64,000 nt of DNA from Microglena sp. YARC (Eukaryota > Chlorophyta > Chlorophyceae > Chlamydomonadales > Chlamydomonadaceae). Positions within the stretch are counted from its first letter, which is position 1. Every line of letters begins with the position of its first letter. The position numbers were made by a program, and so were the translations under genes. Under the pieces are notes generated by a model that was not told where the DNA came from, did not search any database, and saw nothing but the letters and a program-made list of their open reading frames with translations. The stretch lies in the NCBI GenBank assembly GCA_022414725.1, contig CM039465.1, positions 16,683,597 to 16,747,596 of the forward strand, written 5' to 3'. Below, piece after piece: positions 31,155 through 51,440 of the stretch.

Positions 31155-31273
31155 ATGGCTCTAGACCTAGCTGCGTTTAATGACCAGCTGGCCACTGCTC
31201 GCGATCTAGCGCTCAAGAGCGAATATGGTAGCTCTTTAGTGTACTACGAGGGTGTAATATCGCAGATAGCAAG
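31155..31273 (+). CDS. KATNA1: Katanin exon 1 (start codon)
   Basis: This exon encodes [20 protein letters not shown] and on to [11 protein letters not shown], the first helices of the p60 N-terminal domain. The ATG is the first in frame and follows a stop-containing upstream region. Donor GTAAGC, phase 2. Confidence 0.92.
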
Positions 31274-34200
31274 GTAAGCTGCTTCCCCTACACCCCAGTA
31301 AGGCATCCATAGGAATGCTTGTGGGAAGGCTGAGGCTCTTCATCAAACCCTCTTACTGGGCATGTCTGGGTGTGAGTGGTGGTGGATATCCTGGTGGGTG
31401 GTCGTGAGGGGCATGGAATGTAGTCCCATACTGTATAGTGCCTGGGAAGTGGAGCCTGCCAAACAACCTTGGGACAACTGAGTAGTGGGCTTTTCTGTAT
31501 TTGCGTGGTGGTGAATGTGGTGGTGGGTGGTTGTAAGGGACGTGGGATGCACTCCCATAGTGTTCAGTGCCTGGGAAGGGGTGCCTGCCCGACAACCTTG
31601 GGACAACTAGGCAGTGAGTATGTCTGTGTGTGTGTGGTGGTTGATGTGGTGGTGGGTGGTTGTAAGAGGCATGGGACACACTCCCATACTTTACGGTGGC
31701 TGGGTAGGGGTGCCTGCCCGACAACCTTGAGAGAGATAGTTAGTGGGCATGTCTGTGTGTGGTGCTGGATGTGGTGATGGTTGGGTGGTTGTAAGGGACA
31801 TGGGATGCACTCCCATAGTGTACAGTGGCTGGGAAAGGGTGCCCGCCCAATTACCTTGGGGCAACTAGGCAGTGAGTATGTGTGTGTGTGTGTGTGTGTG
31901 TGGTGCTAGATGTGGTGGTGGGTGGTTTTAAGGGACATAGGATGCACTCCCATACTGTACAGTTGCTGTGGAGGGGTGTCTGCCCGACAACCTTGGGAGA
32001 GTAAGTTAGTGGTCATGCATGTATGTGTGTGGTGCTGGATGTGGTGGTGGTTGGTTGGTTGGATGGGTTATGGGATGTACTTCCATAGTATACAGTGGCT
32101 GGAAAGGGGTGCCTGCCCGATAAACTTGGGACAACTAGGCAGTATGTCTGTCTGTGTGTGTGGTGGTGGTGGTGGATGTGGTGGTTGGTTGGTTGGATGG
32201 GACATTGGATGCACTCCCATACTGTATAGTGGCTGGAAAGGCGTGCCTGACCTACAACCTTGGGGCAACTAGGCAGTGAGTATGTGTGTGTATGGTGGTG
32301 GATGTGGTGGGTGGTTGTAAGGGGCATGCGACGCTCTCCCATACTGTACAGTGGCTGAGAAGGGGTGCCTGCTCGACAACCTTGAGAGAGATAGTTAGTG
32401 GTCATGTCTGTTGTGTGTGTGGTGCTGGATATGTTGATGGTTGGTTGGTTGGATGGGTTATGGGACGCACTCCCATACTGCACAGTGGCTGAGAAGGGGT
32501 GCCTGCTCGACAACCTTGTGAGAGATAGTTAGTGGTCATGTCTGTTGTGTGTGTGGTGCTGGATATGTTGATGGTGGGTTGGTTGGATGGGTTATGGGAC
32601 GCACTCCCATACTGTACAGTGGCTGGGAAGGGGTGCCTGACGACAACCTTGTGAGAGATAGTTAGTGGTCATGTCTGTGTGTGTGGTGGTGGATGTGGTG
32701 GTGGGCGGCTGGAGAGGTTATGGGATGCACTCCCATACTGTACAGTGGCTGGGAAGGAGTGCCTGCCCGACAACCTTGGGAGAGTTTGTTAGTGGTCATG
32801 TCTGTGTGAGTGTTGGTGGATGTGGTGGTGGACGGCAGGAGAGGTTATGGGACACTCTCCCATACTGTACAGTGGTTGAGAAGGGGTGCCTGCCCGATAA
32901 CCTTGGGGGAACTAGGCAGTGAGTATGTCTGTGTGTGTGGTGGTGGATGTGGTGGTGGGTGGTTGTAAAGGGCATGGGACACACTCCCATAGTGTGCAGT
33001 GGCTGGGAAAGGGTGCCTGCCCAATAACCTTGGGGCAACTAGGCCGTGAGTATGTGTGTGTGTGTGGTGCTGGATGTGGTGATGGGTGGTTGGATGGGGC
33101 ATGAGATGCACTCCCATACTGTACAGTGGCTGGGAAGGGGTGCCTGACAACAACCTTGTGTGAGATAGTTAGTGGGCATGTCTGTTGTGTGTGTGTGGTG
33201 CTGGATATGGTGATGGTTGGTTGGTTGGATGGGTTATGGGACGCACTCCCATACTGTACAGTGAGCACGCCCACAAGCAGGGTGTACATCACAACCAAAA
33301 GCGGGGTGTACACCACAACCACAAGCAGGATGTACACCACAATCACCAGCAGGGCCTACATCACAACCACCAGCAGGGCGTACATCACAACCACAAGCAG
33401 GGTGTATATCACAACCACAAGCAGGGCGTACATCACCACACGCCGGGCGTACATCACAGCTACCGGCAGGGTATATATCAAAACCACAAGCAGGGCGTAC
33501 ACAACCACAAGCAGGGCGTACATCACCACACGCAGGGCTTACATCACAACCTCAAGCAGGGCGTACATCACCACACGCAGGGCGTACATCACAACCACAA
33601 GCAGGGTGTATATCACAACCACAAGCGGGGTTTACATCACAACCACAAGCATGGCGTACATCACAACCGCAAGAAGAGTGTGTATCACAACCACCAGCAG
33701 GGCGTACATTACAACCACAAGCAGGGTGTACATCACAACCACAAGCAGGGCGTACATCACCACCACAAGCAGGGTGTACATCACAACCACAAGCAGGGTG
33801 TACATCACAACCACAAGCAGGGCGTACATCACCACACACAAGGCGTACATCACAACCACAAGCAGGGTGTATATCACAACCACCAGCATACTGGCATGCA
33901 GATGACAAAATTGTACATCACAACCACCAGCATACTGGCATGCAGATGACAAAATCGTACATCACAACCACCAGCATACTGGCATGCAGATGACAAAATC
34001 GTACATCACAACCACCAGCATACTGGCATGCAGATGACAAAACCGTACATCACAACCACCAGCATACTGGCATGCAGATGAAAACATCGCTGCTCATATA
34101 CATGCACACCCAGGCACACCCTTATCCTACACCACACCACTATACAACCCCTACACCCCAACACCACTCACCACATCACAACACACCACCCAACTACCCC

Positions 34201-51152: not shown

Positions 51153-51189
51153 TGAGACTTGCCGTCATGCAACAATCGGGTGAAGCCCC

Positions 51190-51440
51190 CCATATGCAAT
51201 GCCGTCCCTGCAGACAGAAAGAGGCACGTGGATTGGGAGAAGGGCTTCAGCAGGGCATAGGAACATTTAAGTGCTTAAGGGTGGGGTGGGGGGAGGTAGG
51301 GGGGTAAGTAGGTAGGTGATGGGGGGGGGGGGGGGGGGGGGGGGGGGGGTAGTGTGGGTGAGGGGGGGGGGGGACTGCACTCAGACATTAAGTGGCACTT
51401 GGATTGGGAGAAGGACTTTGGAAGCACTTAGGACTTTATC
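51190..51440 (+). repeat. Two partial copies of katanin exon 10 beyond the stop codon
   Basis: 51208-51250 and 51377-51432 repeat CACGTGGATTGGGAGAAG from the end of exon 10; the second also keeps GGAAGCACTTAG, the stop codon region. A poly-G run of about 30 bases lies at 51320-51350. Confidence 0.88.

Follow-up and report, generated by a model that had tools for sequence, protein, structure and literature searches.

The katanin locus

The window, i.e. the whole stretch of 64,000 nucleotides that was analysed, harbors an intact katanin p60 gene of ten exons on the + strand (31155-51152; Table 1). The introns are of the GT-AG type, and the joined exons can be read through without a stop to give 546 aa. 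This figure belongs to the first gene model; alignment with relatives suggests that the acceptor of E9 is at 47889, 12 nt downstream of its place in that model, and the 12 nt are lost with the later acceptor. The end of E3 is the least certain exon border of the gene, since the first three unit steps of the array that follows it are multiples of three and the frame stays open. Conceptual joining of the exons at their outermost junctions yields an intact protein, in which the Pfam domains MIT, AAA, lid and Vps4_C are found. Katanins of named relatives, at 54-57% identity, are those of Chlamydomonas eustigma, Chlamydomonas sp. UWO 241 and Haematococcus lacustris. The window is from a Chlamydomonadales-like green alga, one allied to the Chlamydomonas order.

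The surroundings contain two Copia-type retrotransposons with RVT_2, integrase and gag_pre-integrase domains, two long ORFs with internal tandem repeats whose units are both multiples of three, an ORF with a chitin-binding domain (Chitin_bind_1) and an ORF with an endonuclease/exonuclease domain, which scored slightly under the Pfam cut-off and may belong to a non-LTR element. Reading by eye revealed, at three places, an element that resembles a tRNA and looks like a SINE (aatgataacgcctggtgggg or its complement); one of its copies appears to sit within the array behind E2. ARAGORN found no tRNA in the window and Rfam gave no match.

Copies of exon ends in the katanin introns

Each exon with 200-nt flanks was compared with the whole window, and matches with fewer than 15 exonic nt were left out. 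Diverged copies of exon ends, usually together with the splice site or the stop codon, were found at seven of the ten exons (E2, E3, E5, E6, E7, E9 and E10), always in the adjacent intron or in the 3' flank. We call these copies mirages, after the name given to tandem repeats across exon-intron borders in amphioxus genes (PMC3087553). In this search E1 and E8 had no exon-containing copies, and E4 has only acceptor-like remnants that were seen by eye and fall below the cut of 15 exonic nt. The first-pass annotation had counted eight of the ten exons; the layout it described is there, the number is not.

Table 1 Features of the window (positions are those of the window; E1 to E10 are the exons of katanin)
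Feature	Position	Strand	Description
Presumed neighbouring gene	130..2460	-	exon about 651-785, copies at 2/2 borders
Tandem repeat in long ORF	7124-7796		75-nt unit
Copia-type retrotransposon	17229-20851	-	
Copia-type retrotransposon	22454-25870	+	
E1	31155-31273	+	
E2	34304-34469	+	
E2 donor mirage array	34416..35675	+	54 exonic nt, GT and intron start; 7 copies beyond the true junction
SINE-looking element	34946-35150		by eye
E3	36011-36400	+	
E3 donor mirage array	36333..37623	+	68 exonic nt and about 58 intronic nt; 9 copies
Weak acceptor-like remnants of E4 (two)	near 37629-37662, 38108-38150	+	by eye
E4	39257-39339	+	
E5	40289-40397	+	
E5 donor mirage array	40314..40927	+	last 84 nt of E5 and 28 nt of intron; 3 copies
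E6 acceptor mirage	42336..42743	+	intron end, AG and up to 104 nt of E6; 1 full and 1 truncated copy upstream
E6	42640-42777	+	
E7 acceptor mirage	43083..43937	+	pyrimidine tract, AG and about 94 nt of E7; 2 copies and 1 partial
E7	43844-44094	+	
E7 donor mirage array	44017..45760	+	last 75-78 nt of E7 and intron start, unit about 126 nt; 12 copies and 1 fragment
SINE-looking element	45800-46090		by eye
E8	46435-46510	+	
E9 start copy in intron 8	47697..47731	+	35 nt, without acceptor; 1 copy
E9	47889-48059	+	acceptor set by alignment with relatives
E9 donor mirages	48022..50231	+	last 38 nt and donor region; 8 dispersed copies
E9 donor tandem array	48053-48441	+	59/74-nt units at the donor
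SINE-looking element	50450-50660		by eye
E10	51027-51152	+	
E10 end copies beyond the true stop	51098..51431	+	2 copies, the second with the stop codon
ORF with Chitin_bind_1	58277-58897	-	
Tandem repeat in long ORF	61502-61732		69-nt unit
ORF with endonuclease/exonuclease domain	62878-63780	+	

Copies lie on the donor side of E2, E3, E5, E7 and E9, on the acceptor side of E6, E7 and E9 (a 35-nt piece) and at the stop end of E10. Mirages thus occur at both kinds of border, at five of nine donors and two of nine acceptors. Their placement is strictly one-way: copies of donors and stops are always downstream and acceptor-side copies always upstream of the true junction, in katanin as well as at the covered borders of the other genes described below. 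As had been noted at the outset, none of the copies comprises a katanin exon in full; the longest exonic pieces cover 104 of 138 nt in E6 and 84 of 109 nt in E5. That the copies combine an exon end with its splice site is true as a rule, but the piece from the start of E9 lacks the acceptor. With the whole window searched, the exon-containing copies of each exon adjoin that exon only. The same layout recurs at most katanin exons with unit sequences that differ between introns and are unrelated, just as first described. About 62% of the katanin intron sequence derives from duplication, and collapsing the copies reduces the introns from 18.4 kb to 7.0 kb.

In the E5 array the copies are separated by a C-run/AC-run. 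Since CAG stands in front of at least two of the three copies and GT behind all three, they look like pseudo-exons as far as their sequence goes. Database entry P0001, an automatic prediction evidently of the same gene, has two of the E5 copies as exons and skips E6; border copies mislead gene prediction.

Divergence and history of the arrays

In their exonic parts the copies share about 79-96% identity with the true exon, and they also differ among themselves. A mis-expansion of repeats during assembly might be considered, given that the genome is highly repetitive, but it is hardly credible in view of copies that differ from the exon and from each other by several to about 20%, of varying homopolymer lengths, of one array that by eye appears to contain a SINE-like insert and of the recurrence of the feature on three large contigs (C1, C2 and C5).

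According to the aligner GT is kept in 30 of 39 donor copies; in three E9 copies inserted bases displace the GT, as judged by eye, so that the strict count is 27 of 39 and GT is lost in 9 to 12 copies. The loss is evident in the E7 donor array, where GT is kept in 6 of 12 copies and six consecutive copies have GC instead. AG is intact in all three acceptor copies that extend to the border, and two truncated ones stop short of it. By our own reckoning, GT is retained in the donor copies at about the level predicted from the identity of the exonic parts, and therefore there is no sign of upkeep of the donor copies. A good part of the decoy sites is already dead, at about the rate to be expected from overall divergence. 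The earlier view that decoy splice sites fill the introns thus holds in that splice-site-like sequences were added, and fails for the 9 to 12 donor copies without GT. The copies might serve in the regulation of katanin splicing, as functional decoy sites or as poison exons; in favour of this are the 27-30 of 39 donor copies that kept GT and the pseudo-exon-like E5 copies, two of them used as exons in P0001. We consider this very unlikely: GT is retained in the donor copies about as often as their overall identity would predict, GC replaces GT in six consecutive E7 copies, and the same feature is present in unrelated genes.

The history of the arrays was addressed by shuffling the order of copies in four arrays, three from katanin (11 of the 12 E7 donor copies were used) and one from the random stretch L013 described below. 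Neighbouring copies are more alike than in shuffled order in two of the four, E7 (P 0.0004) and E2 (P 0.03); this test gave no neighbour effect in E3 (P 0.53) and L013 (P 0.21). In the four arrays, respectively 30 of 47, 28 of 46, 13 of 36 and 23 of 35 columns with variation show a difference from the exon that at least two copies have in common. The likeness of neighbours in E7 and E2, together with the differences shared between copies, suggests that at least some arrays grew from copies, and there are signs of serial expansion in two of the four. Apparently this history was not simple, because E3 and L013 are without neighbour effect and because the copies in E3 and E2 are at least as similar to the true junction as to each other: mean likeness to the true junction versus that between neighbours is 0.870 versus 0.836 in E3 and 0.857 versus 0.847 in E2, a pattern that simple serial expansion would not predict. 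Differences between copy and exon are commonest at third codon positions (0.137 versus 0.087 and 0.065). Such a bias would not be expected for purely neutral copies facing a fixed exon, but could be explained by silent change in the exon itself.

Splice borders and the duplicated background in katanin

The first-pass annotation had raised the idea of a process that either targets splice junctions or is tolerated there. A border was counted as covered if a local copy reaches 12 nt on both sides; copies more than 5 kb away, below 70% identity or shorter than 40 bp are omitted from this count, from the coverage of the 10-kb stretches and from the count of 22 borders in other genes given below. 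In katanin 7 of 18 splice borders are covered. This is not high, because shifted borders average 10.3 (sd 2.3) or 12.1 (sd 2.1), depending on masking. At distances of more than 150 nt from a border, 62-72% of the intron positions are themselves covered by local copies, and the exon-side breakpoints scatter widely around the border. Controls with shuffled borders had been proposed at the outset for all genes of the genome; with the borders shifted round katanin, copies at the borders turned out not to be commoner than at shifted positions.

A different picture emerges if events are counted instead of positions. Seven of 18 repeat families span a border versus 2.4 expected by random placement in the collapsed gene (P 0.004). 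This excess was given little weight, since the 18 families and their unit lengths were hand-picked post hoc, before all repeat rows had been listed, and since exon-anchored copies would be easier to detect than copies of a decaying intron. The event count may nevertheless hint at a modest bias of duplication toward splice borders.

Border copies in other genes

The genome background was sampled with 20 random 10-kb stretches (L011-L030); ten further stretches (L001-L010) are contig starts and stand outside all random counts. In the random stretches the mean share of positions covered by local copies within 5 kb is 41% with low complexity masked and 46% otherwise (range 5-100%); in two 10-kb pieces of katanin this share is 49-65% and 61-71%. 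Genes were sought in the 45 longest of 330 ORFs from the 30 stretches, and exon borders were marked in six random stretches; L018, L027 and the remaining stretches are outside the border count. The borders in L012, in L015 and most of those in L013 were set by eye without family support.

Eleven of the 22 marked borders have copies, and the repeat coverage of the stretches themselves predicts 9.1 (masked) or 10.7. One common cut was applied to all 22 borders; earlier counts with slightly different cuts also gave 11 of 22. An SNF2-type gene in L011 (Pfam 9.3e-25) has copies at all six borders, a phosphoglycerate mutase gene in L013 (2.2e-8) at three of six, L015 (no Pfam hit) at its only border and an SF3B3 gene in L029 (E 1.7e-77) at one of three and at the stop codon. 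A SAL1-like gene in L022 (E 8.8e-70) has copies neither at its three borders nor at its stop, and L012 (no Pfam hit) has none at three borders; the surroundings of both are less duplicated. A Glyco_transf_61 gene-like ORF in L026, which is outside the 22 borders, has no local copies over the ORF.

In L013 a short probe revealed 13 copies of one donor. At 5258-5618 of that stretch, immediately before the marked acceptor, there are eight copies of a piece of about 40 nt that runs across an acceptor-like border; the acceptor may have shifted within an array. At the start of contig C5 (L005, 6440-8812) there is a 791-aa ORF with helicase domains; it looks like a giant-virus helicase and we presume that it could be endogenous viral DNA.

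Within the window, 11-14 copies of the acceptor lie upstream of the exon of the presumed neighbouring gene on the minus strand, and downstream of this exon are 2-3 copies of the donor; no homologue of this gene was found. The feature, first described from one gene, is thus not peculiar to it, being present in this presumed exon and in four of the six random stretches with marked borders. From these sequences, border copies look like a habit of the genome, not special to katanin.

Is duplication, then, started preferentially at splice junctions, so that mirages are over-produced and not just tolerated? Candidate triggers would include co-transcriptional R-loops, and slippage within pyrimidine and G-rich tracts that flank splice sites; several units indeed include homopolymer or AC/G-rich tracts adjoining the splice site. 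The event count (7 of 18 versus 2.4, in the collapsed-gene simulation) and L011, where a repeat coverage of 64-70% leads one to expect 3.9-4.2 of the six borders, point in the same direction. However, the position counts are without excess in both katanin (7 of 18 versus 10.3-12.1) and the random genes (11 of 22 versus 9.1-10.7), the exon-side breakpoints are widely scattered from the border, and the borders of the SAL1-like gene and of L012, with their less duplicated surroundings, are without copies. We regard preferential initiation at junctions as improbable, and we are just as doubtful that duplication seeded there during transcription is what mainly drives the growth of introns and keeps supplying new exons and introns. 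Border coverage in katanin and in the random genes follows the local background, which fits tolerance at splice junctions and, the event count notwithstanding, leaves targeting unsupported. A special splice-site machine is likely not the cause.

A model for intron growth

The copies are local and diverged, are placed in one direction only, contain no whole exon in katanin and affect other genes as well. With good confidence we propose that they are mirage-type minisatellites that result from rampant local tandem duplication and from selection that tolerates copies of a single border. According to this model, local tandem duplication would be very frequent in the genome, with units of some tens to 200 bp, and probably proceeds by replication slippage or unequal exchange; the arrays would then expand. 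Copies that break the coding sequence would be purged by selection: a duplication within an exon would change the protein and duplication of a whole exon would add an exon. Copies across the stop codon or across just one splice border would survive, the latter because the spliceosome can presumably still use the outermost junction, which is the first among the donors and the last among the acceptors. The redundant exon end would turn into intron and then decay, and introns would therefore lengthen by taking in copies of their own borders.

Relation to known systems

To the first-pass annotation no described system of this kind was known. As to the kind of repeat this is wrong, because the mirages of amphioxus span exon-intron borders (PMC3087553, PMC3902484). 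They are described there for Adh3, the globins BflGb6 and BflGb9 and troponin C, with similar repeats in PGBD5; the PGBD5 case was added in PMC3902484, which cites troponin C. The units measure 10-72 bp in Adh3 and reach about 160 bp in the globins, those of BflGb6 are 81-100% alike, and mirages occur at 5' and 3' borders with splice signals in many, not all, copies (PMC3087553). Minisatellite-like duplication across borders, the presence at both border kinds and the splice signals kept in many copies are thus common to amphioxus and the locus described here. The differences are that the present case is from a green alga and involves most exons of one gene, some stop codons and several genes of a random sample. 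In amphioxus RT-PCR suggested that splicing is undisturbed, and mirages were proposed there as a source of new introns (PMC3087553).

The related alga Haematococcus lacustris is reported to have tandem-organised repeats: interspersed repeats of less than 2 kb occur in tandem and form complex patterns tens of kb long, and the part of PMC7617258 drawn on here says nothing on repeats across splice borders. In the literature searched, mostly outside subscription journals, we found no report of border-spanning repeats in algae or at such density.

Three other systems share single traits. In intron gain by tandem duplication, as described for vertebrate ATP2A1 and potato RdRp in PMC4974935, a duplication within the gene also supplies splice signals, but here existing introns are lengthened. 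Tandem exon duplication, as in mutually exclusive exons, likewise places copies of exon sequence in neighbouring introns; the katanin copies are partial, however, and as a rule hold one splice border and never a whole exon with both sites. Introners, according to PMC9860276, also multiply a splice-site-bearing sequence in the genome, whereas within the window the katanin units are local, are unrelated between introns and form no dispersed family.

In amphioxus, reports of mirages have concerned one gene at a time; here is a green-alga genome with copies at 11 of 22 sampled borders. The alga would be a natural test bed for the lengthening of introns, for the choice of the spliceosome among near-identical junctions and for new introns by tandem duplication. 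Compared with what has been described, this is a known kind of repeat, at unusual density, in a green alga.
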